A model generated the notes under the pieces. It was not told the DNA's origin. It saw only the letters and a program-made list of their open reading frames with translations, and ran no database searches. From assembly GCF_037081715.1 (NCBI RefSeq), contig NZ_JAZDDH010000001.1:1612001-1676000 (forward strand): a DNA stretch of 64,000 nt, given 5' to 3'. The stretch is from Halalkalicoccus sp. CG83. GTDB taxonomy: Archaea > Halobacteriota > Halobacteria > Halobacteriales > Halalkalicoccaceae. Of this stretch, positions 16,832-43,360 are shown piece by piece. The translations under genes and the position numbers were made by a program. Every line of letters begins with the position of its first letter. The first letter of the stretch is position 1.

Positions 16832-18619
16832 ATGCGCATTTCGAGCGACGTTCAGAACGACAGCGGTGATGGAGAGGATACCGGACTCGGCGCGCGAACC
16901 CGCCGTACGGTTCTGCGCGGCGCGGCGGCCGCGCTCGGCGTCACCACAGCCGTCGGCGTCGGGAGCGCTCACGATCGGAGCGACGGTGGCGCCAACAGCA
17001 AGTTCGCCGTGAGCGACCACGACGACCGTGCGAGCGGCGATGATCCCGAACCCGAGACCAGGGGTACGAGCGAAAACGCGACCCGGGTCGGCTATCACAG
17101 CCTCGGCGACGTGGGCACCGAGACCGAGGGCGGTCAGCCCGAGGACCCCCATCGGGGTGGTATCACCGAGATCCGGGTTCGGACGAACGAGGCTCTCGAC
17201 CGCGACTTCGCCTACGTCGGGGTCTTCTCCTCGGAGGACGAGTCGGGGAACCGGGGCATGGCGATCATCGACGTCACGGACTACACTCGAGCGGACGGAT
17301 CCGGAGACCTCGACGACGCCGAGATGGAGGTCGTCTCCTTCCTCCCGAACAACAACACGGGCACCGCGATAATGGACGTCAAACCCAACGAGAGCGGTGA
17401 TTTCGTGTTCCTCGGTACACAGCCCATCACGTTGCTTTACGGCGACGTGAGCACGTCGGAGCCCGAGGACGACCCCGGAACCGGCGCAAACACTGGTGGC
17501 CTCATCGCGGTCGACGTCTCCGATCCCGAGAACCCGGAGGCCGTCGCCTCCCTCTCCAACGAGGTCTTCACAACGGGGATCCACAACCTCTTCTCGCATC
17601 GGATCGACGGCGAGGACTACGTCTTCGCGAACAAGGACATCGACCAGGACAGCATCGCCGGACTGTACGTCTACAGGCTCGATCGGTCGCTGGCCGAACC
17701 GACGCTCGAACCGGTCAACTACTACAACGTCAACGGTGACCACGGCCGCGAGCAGGCCGCGGCGCCCGTACCCGTCCCCGGCGGCGACCACTACTGCCAC
17801 GACAACGAAGTCATCGACGACCCGCGAACCGGCACACCGACGCTGTACCTCGCCTACTGGGATCGAGGCATCCACGCACTCGACGTCTCGGACCCGTCCG
17901 ACATCGAGAAGATCGGACAGTTCGACATGAAACAGGGACACTTCGTGACGCCCGCGCCCGAGCTCGTCCCGCTTCGCGACGAGGACGGCAACGTCGTCGA
18001 GGACGAGAACGGCGACAGCGTGGAGAAACGCGTCGTCGTCGCCAGCCACGAGGAGCCCTCGAGCGACTACGACGACGGTGACGAGGGGAAGACCAACCCC
18101 GATAGCACCGGTACCGTCTTCCTGATCGACGCCGACGGCGTCCACGAGACCGACGGCGTCACCGAGATGGGCGAACTCGCGAACTGGACGTGGTACGACG
18201 ATCCCGCCATCGAGTTCGACGACTTCGAACTCAGCCCGCACAACTGTGACGTCTCGAAGCACGTCGTCAAACCCGGCGGCAAGATCGACGAGCAGTTCTG
18301 GATCCATCAAGGACACTACCACGCGGGGGTTCAGTTCCTCCGGATCCGTGCCGGCGAGGACGACGGGACGACCGGCGGGCTCGCCAGGGACCACGACGCC
18401 ACCGACTGGTCGATCACCGAGGAGGGCTTCTCCCGACCGGTCGAGGAGGATCTCGAATCGGAGTCCGGTCTGGAGGGACTCAGCGGCGTAACGCCGGACG
18501 TATGGGCGGCCGTCGAGATGAACGGGGTCACGTTCCTCTCGGACATCAACCAGGGCGTCCACGCCGTCCACCACGACGACTTCCCCGTCGGCAACGAGAC
18601 GGTCAGCACCGGTAACTGA
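16832..18619 (+). CDS. Tat-exported LVIVD-repeat beta-propeller protein (595 aa)
   Basis: 595 residues. The twin-arginine signal 'RTRRTVLRGAAAALGVTTAVGVGSAH' ends near residue 47, with no lipobox Cys, so it is probably a free exported protein. The body has repeated 'IIDVTD', 'AVDVSDPENPEAV' and 'ALDVSDPSDIEKIG' strands characteristic of LVIVD propellers, with a His-rich C-terminal section ('DQFWIHQGHYHAGVQFL', 'GVHAVHHDDF'). LVIVD proteins are known mostly as surface proteins of unknown function. It is paralogous in fold to the gene at 28529-29836 but longer. The neighbours are exported enzymes. Function not known. Confidence 0.85.
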   Translation: MRISSDVQNDSGDGEDTGLGARTRRTVLRGAAAALGVTTAVGVGSAHDRSDGGANSKFAVSDHDDRASGDDPEPETRGTSENATRVGYHSLGDVGTETEGGQPEDPHRGGITEIRVRTNEALDRDFAYVGVFSSEDESGNRGMAIIDVTDYTRADGSGDLDDAEMEVVSFLPNNNTGTAIMDVKPNESGDFVFLGTQPITLLYGDVSTSEPEDDPGTGANTGGLIAVDVSDPENPEAVASLSNEVFTTGIHNLFSHRIDGEDYVFANKDIDQDSIAGLYVYRLDRSLAEPTLEPVNYYNVNGDHGREQAAAPVPVPGGDHYCHDNEVIDDPRTGTPTLYLAYWDRGIHALDVSDPSDIEKIGQFDMKQGHFVTPAPELVPLRDEDGNVVEDENGDSVEKRVVVASHEEPSSDYDDGDEGKTNPDSTGTVFLIDADGVHETDGVTEMGELANWTWYDDPAIEFDDFELSPHNCDVSKHVVKPGGKIDEQFWIHQGHYHAGVQFLRIRAGEDDGTTGGLARDHDATDWSITEEGFSRPVEEDLESESGLEGLSGVTPDVWAAVEMNGVTFLSDINQGVHAVHHDDFPVGNETVSTGN

Positions 18620-23056: not shown

Positions 23057-23284
23057 TCCGGCCGACCACGAATCAGGAAACCGCCTCCCGGTTCGACCGA
23101 GGGGACCGTTCGATCGGAGAAAGCGAAGCGAACCGAGGATCGGCCGTTCGGTCGGAACCCCGCCGTTCCGAACGCTCGCCGGTGGATCTCGTATCGTCCG
23201 GATAGACGTCCGTCCCGTTCAGTGGAGACCGAATCCGTAGTTTCAATGCCAAAATACTTACTTTAGCTCCGTCGAATAATCTCA

Positions 23285-23359
23285 ATGGAAACAGCCTCCT
23301 CGAGTCGTCGTAGTACCGTCGCCTCTCCCCCGCTGCCCGCGGCGGAACGATCGATATGA
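23285..23359 (+). CDS. mini-ORF (24 aa) overlapping the ZIP transporter start
   Basis: ATG at 23285 to TGA at 23357-23359, which overlaps the ATG of the transporter at 23356 (ATGA). The AT-rich box AAAATACTTACTTTA (23251-23265) lies about 28 nt upstream of the mini-ORF ATG, so a leaderless mRNA would begin at the mini-ORF and not at the transporter. The peptide begins METASSSRRS and ends AERSI; it is Ser/Ala/Pro-rich without Cys or His, so it does not look like a metal sensor itself. Confidence 0.45.
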   Translation: METASSSRRSTVASPPLPAAERSI

Positions 23360-24186
23360 GCGCCGCACAGGACCTCTTCGTCTCCATCGCTGGAACGGAT
23401 CCCGTGGTTCAAGGGCTCGTCGGGGGGATCGTGATCGCCACGCTCAACCTGATCGGCGCGGTCCTGGTGTTCGTCTGGCGCGATCCGTCGCAACGCTCCA
23501 TGGACGTGACGCTCGGGGCCGCGGCCGGCATCATGCTCGCCGCCAGTTTCACCAGTCTCATCCTCCCCGGTATCGAGGCCGGCGGGGTCCTCCCCGTGAT
23601 CGTCGGTCTCGTCCTCGGAGTCGTGGTGCTCGATCAGGCGGACGCCTGGGTGCCACACATCCACGTCCTCATCACGGGGCAGATCAGGGAGGACCGCGAT
23701 TCGACGGCCGCCGTCGCGGAGGGGGTCGACGAGTCGCGAGTCGCCGCCGTCCTCCTGTTCATCGTGGCGATAACGCTCCACAACATGCCCGAAGGGTTGG
23801 CCGTCGGCGTCGGATTCGGGTCGGGAAACCTCGACGATGCGATCTCGCTGATGGTGGCGATCGGAATACAGAACGTCCCGGAGGGGCTCGCCGTCTCGGT
23901 CGCGGCCATCAACGCGGGGTTTCACCGGACGTTCTACGCGGTGCTCACCGGGATTCGCGCCGGACTCGTCGAGATCCCGCTCGCAGTCTTCGGCGCCTGG
24001 GCCGTCACCGTCGCCCAGCCACTTCTCCCCTACGCGATGGGCTTCGCCGCCGGAGGGATGCTGTTCGTGATCAGCGACGAGATCATCCCCGAGACCCACT
24101 CCAACGGGAACGAACGTCTCGCTACGCTCGGGATAATGGCCGGTCTGATCGTGATGCTCTACCTCGACGTGGCGCTCGAGGCCTGA
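23356..24186 (+). CDS. ZIP family metal transporter
   Basis: 276 residues, about eight membrane segments. The hallmark motifs of ZIP carriers are present: 'TLHNMPEGLAVGVGF' in helix 4 and 'IGIQNVPEGLAVSVA' in helix 5, whose His/Asn/Glu residues line the metal path. A loop around 105-125 is charged ('REDRDSTAAVAEGVDES'). It imports zinc or other divalent cations across the cytoplasmic membrane; the ion is not determined. Translation is probably coupled to the upstream mini-ORF. Confidence 0.9.
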   Translation: MSAAQDLFVSIAGTDPVVQGLVGGIVIATLNLIGAVLVFVWRDPSQRSMDVTLGAAAGIMLAASFTSLILPGIEAGGVLPVIVGLVLGVVVLDQADAWVPHIHVLITGQIREDRDSTAAVAEGVDESRVAAVLLFIVAITLHNMPEGLAVGVGFGSGNLDDAISLMVAIGIQNVPEGLAVSVAAINAGFHRTFYAVLTGIRAGLVEIPLAVFGAWAVTVAQPLLPYAMGFAAGGMLFVISDEIIPETHSNGNERLATLGIMAGLIVMLYLDVALEA

Positions 24187-24317
24187 CGGTATCGATCCTC
24201 GCCTACCGCCGATGGAACGTGAGGCGGACGAGATCCGCGCCGTCACCGTTGCCGTGGCCGTCGCGAGTCGATCTCACGGGGGAACGGCTTTTTCTCGCCG
24301 GTGATCGAACGGGTGGC

Positions 24318-26530: not shown

Positions 26531-26599
26531 ATGGTACCCCGCGATACGAGAGGGGAGGAATCGCACCGTCGAGGAACCGCAGTCCTCCGATCGACGTGA
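26531..26599 (+). CDS. mini-ORF (22 aa) overlapping the CAP-protein start
   Basis: ATG at 26531, TGA at 26597-26599, overlapping the GTG of the CAP gene at 26596 (GTGA). The TATA-like GCTTATAGTC (26501-26510) lies 26 nt upstream of the mini-ORF ATG. The peptide MVPRDTRGEESHRRG... is Arg/Glu-rich and without recognisable function. The CAP gene itself has only a GTG start and no promoter of its own at the right distance. Confidence 0.42.
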   Translation: MVPRDTRGEESHRRGTAVLRST

Positions 26600-27318
26600 T
26601 CCTCCGGACGCTCTGGCGGGCGATCACGACGGTCCTGGGTGCGGCGCTGCTCGTCGGCGTGCTGTTGAGCCTGCTCTGGACCGCCTCCCTGATGGGGCTG
26701 GTCGACACCGGCGAGGTCGACTCGCCCGTAGTCGAGGACGTCGTCGAGCCACCGCAGTGGTTCGTCGACTCGCCGCTGGTTTGGGAGGTCCCGGCGGGCG
26801 AGCAGACCGGAGGCCCACAGGAGACGCCCGAGGCACCGGAGGGCTCCTCGCCGCCCGAAGGTGATCCCGGGACGACGAGCACCGACGGCGGCGTGACCTC
26901 CGACGAGGTCGAAGCCGAGATCCACGACCAGGTCAACGAGATCCGTGCCGAACGCGGCCTCTCAGAGCTCGAGCACGACGACGAGATCGCGTCGGTCGCC
27001 CGGATCCACAGCCAGGACATGAACGAGCGCGATTACTTCAGCCACACCAACCCGGAGGGCGAGACGCCGGCAGACCGCTTCGGCGATCTCTACCCTGCGG
27101 AGTGTCGGGCGGTAGGTGAGAACCTCGCGTACATCCAGACCGGCGCCGGCGGTTACGGTTCGGCGGAGGAGATCGCAGACCGGATCGTTCAGGGCTGGAT
27201 GGACTCCGACGGTCACCGCGAGAACCTGCTTCGCGAGGACTGGGACTCCGAGGGGATCGGCGTCTACATCGAGGACGGCCGGATCGACGCCACCCAGAAC
27301 TTCTGTACGACCACGTGA
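26596..27318 (+). CDS. membrane-anchored CAP-domain (SCP/PR1-like) protein
   Basis: 240 residues, GTG start. One N-terminal membrane segment (residues 8-35, 'AITTVLGAALLVGVLLSLLWTASL'), a Pro/Glu/Gly-rich linker (60-100), then a CAP domain at about 103-238: 'IHDQVNEIRAERGLSELEHDDEIASVARIHSQDMNERDYFSHTNPEG', 'AVGENLAY', 'IVQGWMDSDGHRENLL'. The two His of the CAP cavity (in 'YFSHTNPEG' and 'DGHRENLL') are present. It is probably displayed on the outer face of the membrane. CAP domains have varied or unknown activities in prokaryotes. Confidence 0.88.
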   Translation: MILRTLWRAITTVLGAALLVGVLLSLLWTASLMGLVDTGEVDSPVVEDVVEPPQWFVDSPLVWEVPAGEQTGGPQETPEAPEGSSPPEGDPGTTSTDGGVTSDEVEAEIHDQVNEIRAERGLSELEHDDEIASVARIHSQDMNERDYFSHTNPEGETPADRFGDLYPAECRAVGENLAYIQTGAGGYGSAEEIADRIVQGWMDSDGHRENLLREDWDSEGIGVYIEDGRIDATQNFCTTT

Positions 27319-42223: not shown

Positions 42224-43360
42224 CTACTCGTCGGAGCCGAACTCGCCCAGTTCGTAGCCGAGCGTGAGCGAGCCGAACAGGGCGATGGCGACGGCACCGA
42301 GTTCGAGGAGCCGCCCGAAGTCGACGAACGTGACGGTCGCGACGATCCCGTCGGAGGCCGCCGCCGCGGGCTCGAGGACTTCGTACGGCGCCACGGCGGT
42401 GGTGATCGCCACCGAGAGCCCGATCGCGAGGACCAACACCGCCAGTTCCAGTCGGATCGACCGGGTGAACGTCGATACGGCGTCCGCCGGTTCGATCCGC
42501 GGACCGACGATCGTCAGCATTCCCGGCAGAACCGCCGCGTCGTTCGTCTCGCGCACCGAGTAGGCGATCCGTTCGTGGAGGACGAATCGATTGAATCCGC
42601 CGATCCCGGCCGCGATCGTGACCAGCACCACCTTCAACGAGAGGAGGACGCCGTAGGGGGTCGTGACGAGCGCGGCGAGCGTCGGCACGTGCCACGCGGC
42701 GATGACGGTGCCGGTGGCGAAGGCGACGGTGACGCCCGCGACGGCGATCATCGAGAACCGGCGGGTGGCCGAGAGGAGGAACTCCGCCGTCTCCGTCTCG
42801 GAGTCGCTCGACACCAGTCCGGGGAGCACTGCGAGGACGGCGAGGCCGCCGGCCCACAGTGCGGCGCCCGTCATGTGCCCCACCTTCGCGAGTATGGCCA
42901 GGCTGGAGCTCTCGACCGCCGCCGAGTAGCGCGTACAGCAGAACGCGAGGAGCATGGCGAGCGCGCCGACGAACACCGTTCCGAGCCAGAGACTCCGGGA
43001 CGTACGATCGGGGATCGCGTGGCGCGCCACGGTCGACAGACCTACGACGGCCGCGGCGACGATCGAGGCCGTCCACATTCGACCCGACGCGGTCGAGCCC
43101 GCCCACGCGACGAACGAGTCGACGTCGACCGACGGTGCGTTCCCGACCGCCAGCGCGGTGCCGGCCAGGACCGCCGCGACGAGCGCCGCCCCGACGAGGG
43201 TCAGAGCCGCGTGATGCACTCGCGCCGTGTCGAGACCCTGGCGCTCCAGTTCGGGGAAGACGACGAACCGAAAGGTCGGCGGCGCTCCCACGAGGAGCAT
43301 CAGTGCCGCCACCAGCACGCCACGGAGCGCCGGCGTCCCCGGGTCGAGCGTTGGGATCAT
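42224..43360 (-). CDS. CopD-family copper transport/resistance membrane protein
   Basis: 378 residues with eight or nine membrane helices. The layout and motifs ('LRGVLVAALMLLVGAPPTFRFVVFPEL', 'MWTASIVAAAVVG', 'LAKVGHMTGAALWAGGLAVLAVLPGLV', 'FNRFVLHERI') fit CopD/YcnJ proteins that move copper into the cytoplasm or protect from it. The His in 'KVGHMTGAALWAGG' is the conserved one of the family. The start is the ATG at 43358-43360, which overlaps an upstream mini-ORF by ATGA. No copC-like gene is adjacent. Confidence 0.85.
   Translation of the reverse strand: MIPTLDPGTPALRGVLVAALMLLVGAPPTFRFVVFPELERQGLDTARVHHAALTLVGAALVAAVLAGTALAVGNAPSVDVDSFVAWAGSTASGRMWTASIVAAAVVGLSTVARHAIPDRTSRSLWLGTVFVGALAMLLAFCCTRYSAAVESSSLAILAKVGHMTGAALWAGGLAVLAVLPGLVSSDSETETAEFLLSATRRFSMIAVAGVTVAFATGTVIAAWHVPTLAALVTTPYGVLLSLKVVLVTIAAGIGGFNRFVLHERIAYSVRETNDAAVLPGMLTIVGPRIEPADAVSTFTRSIRLELAVLVLAIGLSVAITTAVAPYEVLEPAAAASDGIVATVTFVDFGRLLELGAVAIALFGSLTLGYELGEFGSDE

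Follow-up and report, generated by a model that had tools for sequence, protein, structure and literature searches.

A short out-of-frame upstream ORF that overlaps the start of haloarchaeal ZIP transporter genes, a probable ribosome-loading element

The window, meaning the whole stretch of 64,000 nucleotides analysed here, carries a ZIP metal transporter gene that is preceded by a short upstream open reading frame (uORF, or mini-ORF), and the stop codon of this frame overlaps the start codon of the transporter (Table 1). The initial annotation had reported the frame, its ATGA overlap and a transporter downstream. The frame and overlap are there as described, and the gene is a true member of the ZIP family, as its product scores 69.8 bits against a gathering score of 35.1. 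A longer ZIP N-terminus is ruled out, since an in-frame start 5' of 23356 is absent. The 24-residue peptide of the mini-ORF has no family match in Pfam. The stop/start overlap of 4 nt is of the type that defines haloarchaeal termination-reinitiation pairs, and it also has the RTGA form of the coupled small ORFs of mycobacteria.

The TATA-like box is the best match near the mini-ORF, and its score exceeds the 95% level of the background (3.31) and falls short of the 99% level (5.29). The ZIP start itself scores -2.8 and hence has no TATA-like box. A TATA patch placed 28 nt from the mini-ORF ATG had been claimed, and here the box is present and the spacing is right to within a few nucleotides. 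The Shine-Dalgarno (SD)-like stretch before the ZIP start is weak in the window (duplex energy -5.0 kcal/mol), the homologues with a uORF averaging -7.89 kcal/mol. An overlapping ATG frame arises in 8% of 100 dinucleotide shuffles of the upstream sequence; taken alone the single locus is just mildly unusual, and the weight comes from the homologues.

Table 1. Features of the ZIP locus and of a second, similarly arranged locus in the window
Feature	Position	Strand	Basis or remark
TATA-like box AATACTTA	23253..23260	+	PWM from 136 annotated genes, score 5.2 bits; begins 32 nt 5' of the mini-ORF ATG
uORF METASSSRRSTVASPPLPAAERSI, 24 codons, ATG to stop TGA	23285..23359	+	same layout in 77/178 ZIP homologues vs 24.8 expected
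Weak SD-like GCGGAAC within the uORF	23342..23348	+	8-14 nt 5' of the ZIP start; chosen by eye
ATGA, 4-nt overlap of uORF stop with ZIP start	23356..23359	+	read from sequence
ZIP metal transporter gene, 276 aa	23356..24186	+	PF02535, E 3.1e-19
Extra unit: promoter, uORF and ZIP	23057..24275	+	flanking genes are neighbours in five sister genomes; right edge set by eye, approximate
Second case: uORF MVPRDTRGEESHRRGTAVLRST; overlaps the CAP gene at its GTG start	26531..26599	+	with TATA
CAP-domain gene 3' of the second uORF	26596..27318	+	PF00188 match

ZIP loci were taken from the best 80 of 499 relatives, from searches at the level of genus, family and order, and from 120 further regions. The order-level search found a match in 196 of 392 genomes, and the 150 places listed were examined. 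The resulting 243 loci were reduced to 208 by removing one without a match and 34 with identical gene ends. Setting aside 19 bacterial and 10 low-scoring loci gave 179 haloarchaeal ZIP genes, 178 of them with a start in the accepted range. A gene was counted as having the layout when an ATG-initiated frame, out of phase with ZIP, started 15-150 nt upstream and ended between -3 and +15 nt from the ZIP start.

Such an out-of-frame upstream frame ends at the ZIP start in 77 of the 178 haloarchaeal homologues, where shuffled sequences give 24.8; by this measure chance could account for roughly one in three of the 77. Two loci named Haloferax, L047 and L054, are among those that show the layout. 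With one gene per cluster at 85% identity the layout is present in 19 of 46 (5.7 expected; the maximum in 20,000 simulations was 16). The trait follows clades: of the 23 clusters that hold more than one gene, 19 are all-or-none, either uniformly with a uORF (for example 10/10, 7/7, 4/4, 3/3 and 3/3) or uniformly lacking one (for example 0/22, 0/10, 0/5, 0/4 and 0/4), and four are mixed (12/26, 22/26, 1/7 and 2/3). On a FastTree phylogeny of the 178 proteins the trait takes 22 changes, where shuffled labels take about 58, and the starred branches force just seven. A candidate start accompanied by such a frame exists in four of the 19 bacterial homologues, in every case far upstream (-92 to -137), and these were read as chance.

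The layout stays at chance level in the control sets. Annotated plasmid genes were drawn from three records in two genera (a plasmid search of nine records served just for picking annotated records), with at least 100 aa, 60 nt of free space upstream and ZIP genes excluded; 15 of 115 have the layout, against 16.1 expected. Earlier counts of these plasmid genes were 22/143, made with no shuffle, and 15/118 against 16.5 with three ZIP genes still included; in the latter set a TATA box at the uORF occurs in 5 of 118 (4.3 expected). The ZIP genes located on these plasmid stretches, three in all, have no such uORF (0/3), and neither do the Halalkalicoccus ZIP paralogues of 33-40% identity (0/10, a count without a shuffle). 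For the acyl-CoA dehydrogenase gene that lies downstream of ZIP, a control consisting of the best 30 places (79 of 98 genomes had a match) gives 1/30 against 1.8 expected. That the layout is a general feature of haloarchaeal genes was rejected, as the annotated plasmid genes of these three records and two genera do not show it above chance. In the control sets the layout is not general, and it marks certain families or clades.

The promoter signal, too, often lies at the uORF. The TATA model was trained on the 136 annotated haloarchaeal plasmid genes, in which the start of the 8-mer peaks at -30, and ZIP coding DNA served as background; initial models trained solely on ZIP upstream regions were poor and hence were replaced. 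A narrower criterion gave a strict set of 64 uORF genes against 114 other genes. Scores above the 95% background level were found at 31 of the 64 uORF starts, a count that favours the ribosome-loading model in that 11 of the 64 offered several possible ATGs, among which the choice went to that preceded by the most AT-rich sequence; the remaining 33 uORF starts do not exceed this level. At the ZIP starts of the same genes the level is exceeded in 5 of 64, compared with 36 of 114 at the ZIP starts of the remaining genes.

Another view is given by 55 genes that lack a TATA box at the ZIP start and have an upstream ATG with one. Their frames end between -4 and +14 of the ZIP start in 43 of 55 cases against 13.0 expected, an interval that was picked after the positions had been seen; with one gene per cluster the same test gives 13 of 17 against 3.9, with a maximum of 11 in 20,000. 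These results suggest that some haloarchaeal ZIP genes have their promoter directly at the ZIP start and that others have the ribosome-loading layout. Among genes lacking a uORF, 67 of 101 also lack a recognised TATA box at the ZIP start, and 13 of these 67 have an ATG frame that ends within 40 nt of it.

The overlap between stop and start recurs while the frame itself varies. uORF length across the homologues ranges from 8 to 49 codons. In the strict set the overlap is +4 in 34 of 64 and 7 nt in 25 of 64, the latter being frequent where the gene starts with GTGGTAG. A 7-nt overlap would need the terminating ribosome to step back by 1 nt to re-initiate. In the GTGGTAG-start group the AT box, placed by eye, lies closer to 40 nt 5' of the uORF, so these mRNAs would not be strictly leaderless. 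In a cluster of seven genes, three of them from organisms named Halobellus, frames of 17, 27, 27, 37, 39 and 44 codons share the 4-nt overlap, and in the seventh member 1 nt separates stop from start.

Codon positions tell the same story. In the largest clade (n=10, all with 15 codons) the differences at positions 1, 2 and 3 are 0.37, 0.48 and 0.52 in the uORF, against 0.06, 0.02 and 0.25 in ZIP. In 12 smaller groups of two to six sequences each, a consistent excess at the third position was not seen in the uORF. Since lengths vary and codon positions carry no coding constraint, the uORF peptide is not conserved. For the ZIP family the architecture is conserved and the peptide is not; the window uORF has no close relative, the best ZIP identity being 76%. 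Three loci (L011, L026 and L120) have upstream regions that are alike with a small indel near the uORF start, and the frame of L011 ends 13 nt before ZIP without overlapping it.

The composition of the 64 strict-set uORFs was compared with expectation. Trp is enriched (42 against 20.5), probably in part from GTGGTAG starts, which force TGG TAG. Cys (26 against 19.2) and His (28 against 22.8) rise slightly, and a zinc-sensing peptide was rejected as a clear Cys/His signal is absent from these 64 uORFs.

SD-like sequence is enriched inside the upstream ORFs of the family. Pairing with the 16S tail before the ZIP start has a mean of -7.89 kcal/mol in genes with a uORF, where shuffles of their own composition give -5.89, and -4.17 in genes without. 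Pairing of -6 kcal/mol or stronger is found in 86% with a uORF (own shuffles 54%) and in 29% without. GTG starts are also commoner in genes with a uORF (43/77) than in those without (19/101). Independent contrasts on the tree, with seven usable pairs, were not significant for SD-like pairing or for GTG starts. The enrichment fits the available account of SD use in haloarchaea, in which SD sequences serve reinitiation rather than de novo initiation (PMC6728339).

The ZIP unit is a difference between relatives. In the window 1,261 nt (23057-24317), containing promoter, uORF and ZIP, separate an AlaX-type gene from the acyl-CoA dehydrogenase gene. In five other Halalkalicoccus genomes these two genes are about 40 nt apart, and two of the five (G002 and G004) have a ZIP gene of 68% identity at another place. 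L002, which is 76% identical to the window ZIP and its nearest tree neighbour, also has a uORF, though one that differs in sequence. The unit was probably gained by transfer, judging from this arrangement; it may instead have been lost in the sister genomes.

A CAP-domain gene downstream in the window has the same layout (Table 1). The CAP sample comprised 30 loci, 11 of which had an N-terminus close enough for judging. The same test finds the layout in four further Halalkalicoccaceae (L249, L251, L255 and L256), and in three more (L250, L252 and L253) a 17-codon frame ends in GTGA when a downstream start is taken. Counting the window, all eight Halalkalicoccaceae with a match thus show the layout (8 of 8), and their uORFs have 17, 22 or 27 codons; no match was found in two of the 10 genomes of the family. 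In the three judgeable homologues outside the Halalkalicoccaceae it is absent at the called start. The ZIP locus had been described as the cleanest of its set, which is doubtful as closer relatives keep the layout of the CAP gene.

Two other genes in the window were noted. A CopD-family gene (42224-43360, minus strand) has a long, TATA-placed frame that ends in RTGA at a possible start, and 4 of 10 CopD homologues have such a frame at differing positions. A gene at 17009-18619 (plus strand), with a sub-threshold LVIVD-repeat match, likewise has a long TATA-placed frame with an RTGA end at a possible start.

We therefore propose that the mini-ORF is probably a nonsense uORF that loads ribosomes by leaderless initiation followed by termination and reinitiation. 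From the observed anatomy, the enrichment, the lack of constraint at codon positions and the SD-like enrichment across the family, we infer the following course. Transcription would begin at or just 5' of ATG 23285, to judge from the TATA spacing; the mRNA would then be leaderless for the mini-ORF and ribosomes would enter there. They would translate a peptide of no importance, halt at TGA 23357-23359 and re-initiate at the overlapping ZIP ATG, helped in the family by the SD-like stretch within the mini-ORF. The uORF would enable translation of ZIP, not repress it. Selection would act on the start, the frame, the stop/start overlap and often the promoter spacing, and the peptide would not be selected. 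This is the most economical account. The initial annotation had called the mini-ORF leaderless and coupled to ZIP; coupling is supported, leaderlessness is probable from the promoter spacing, and the comparative evidence points to selection on the architecture.

The same annotation went further and took the mini-ORF for a gate on the transporter, a part that the analysis does not support. A regulatory uORF would damp ZIP or gate it conditionally, for instance according to the supply of metal, and would do so by stalling, by sensing through the peptide or by refolding of the RNA. Control of a metal transporter would come as no surprise, the layout is linked to particular gene families in the tested sets, and the label takes its 22 changes on the tree, though the starred branches force only seven. 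From -35 to +35 of the ZIP start the RNA also folds a little more stably in genes that have a uORF (-23.9 kcal/mol) than in those that lack one (-21.0). Against this, its fold is unremarkable, with z-scores near zero around the ZIP start (-0.33 with a uORF and -0.21 without), and an RNA switch draws no support from these z-scores. An attenuator with a sensing leader peptide would have conserved sensor codons or a stall peptide, and across the clades neither was seen. Cys and His are barely above expectation, codon positions are free of constraint, and a CAP-family gene shares the layout. We regard regulation of this kind as unlikely.

It is very improbable that the frame is a chance one, on an mRNA with a 5' UTR from which ZIP starts independently of a meaningless mini-ORF. 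The shuffles of the window's upstream sequence that yield such a frame, and the annotated control genes at their chance rate, are what would be expected then; the family-wide enrichment, the TATA placement and the SD-like placement are not. To the idea that ZIP shares an operon with a functional micropeptide we give almost no credence. Overlapping pairs often code for partners, to go by the title of one paper (PMC10666635), but both sequence and length are free even inside genera, the peptide in the window has no Pfam match, and a conserved micropeptide was ruled out as conservation between clades is absent.

The ribosome-loading reading can be extended, as a decidedly speculative and improbable conjecture, to a third way of starting translation, next to leaderless and leadered initiation. 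Nonsense mini-ORFs would then be selected, gene-specific loaders of haloarchaea, and on ZIP genes they would report metal status. ABCE1, a recycling factor, bears Fe-S clusters; reinitiation might rise when a shortage of metal, or oxidative stress, impairs it, a link to ABCE1 that is itself conjecture. If this were true the transporter would be produced exactly when needed.

If ribosome loading is what the mini-ORF does, the 5' leaders of haloarchaea would conceal translated frames that gene finders skip. Haloarchaea seldom use SD sequences de novo (PMC6728339, as far as its available text goes), which raises the question of how genes distant from the 5' end of an mRNA obtain ribosomes. A gene family that alternates between a start close to the promoter and a nonsense uORF would be a natural experiment on ribosome supply.

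Several known systems resemble the ZIP case, as described in the available parts of the cited papers. The mycobacterial "coupled" small ORFs (Shell et al. 2015, PMC4633059) have the same design: a leaderless transcript opens with an unannotated small ORF, the TGA of which overlaps the RTG of the next gene. In one example the peptide sequence is unconserved and the leaderless start and linkage are conserved. That work concerns bacteria and used RNA-seq and ribosome profiling, whereas the ZIP case is archaeal and known from sequence alone; it is, unlike the mycobacterial one, traced through one gene family, with overlaps of 4, 7 and 13 nt.

In Haloferax volcanii termination-reinitiation operates at overlapping gene pairs, and intragenic SD sequences are used for reinitiation and seldom de novo (Huber et al. 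2019, PMC6728339). When the SD was removed from seven pairs, reinitiation persisted in every one of them, and the outcome ranged from a strong loss to a gain. These pairs share the domain of life and the ATGA overlaps with the ZIP case; their partners are native overlapping genes, whereas the upstream partner of ZIP is a nonsense mini-ORF. uORFs were reported in 16 of 97 H. volcanii 5'-UTRs of 150-250 nt, possibly coding for small proteins of low pI (Babski et al. 2016, PMC4983044). Like the ZIP mini-ORF, they are short (15-31 aa) and precede haloarchaeal genes; the available text, unlike the present study, mentions neither stop/start overlap nor conservation across genomes. The term "uORF" is absent from the available text of a 2025 Ribo-seq paper on H. 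volcanii (PMC12482152).

A synthetic "nonsense" booster in E. coli (nfORF, PMC13255528) is a short nonfunctional upstream ORF with an RBS beside its stop that lifts translation of the target. It is engineered and bacterial, and, unlike the ribosome loading proposed for ZIP, its available description makes no mention of leaderless transcripts. A 2025 review (PMC12548453) suggests, in the part available, that ribosomes could reach a gene by way of a short upstream ORF, which would "deliver" them. In the literature searched we found no nonsense uORF that loads ribosomes onto a haloarchaeal ZIP gene, and none that is conserved across a family of archaeal genes. The mycobacterial design and reinitiation in Haloferax were already known, and what is new relative to that literature is a probable archaeal case that extends through a gene family.
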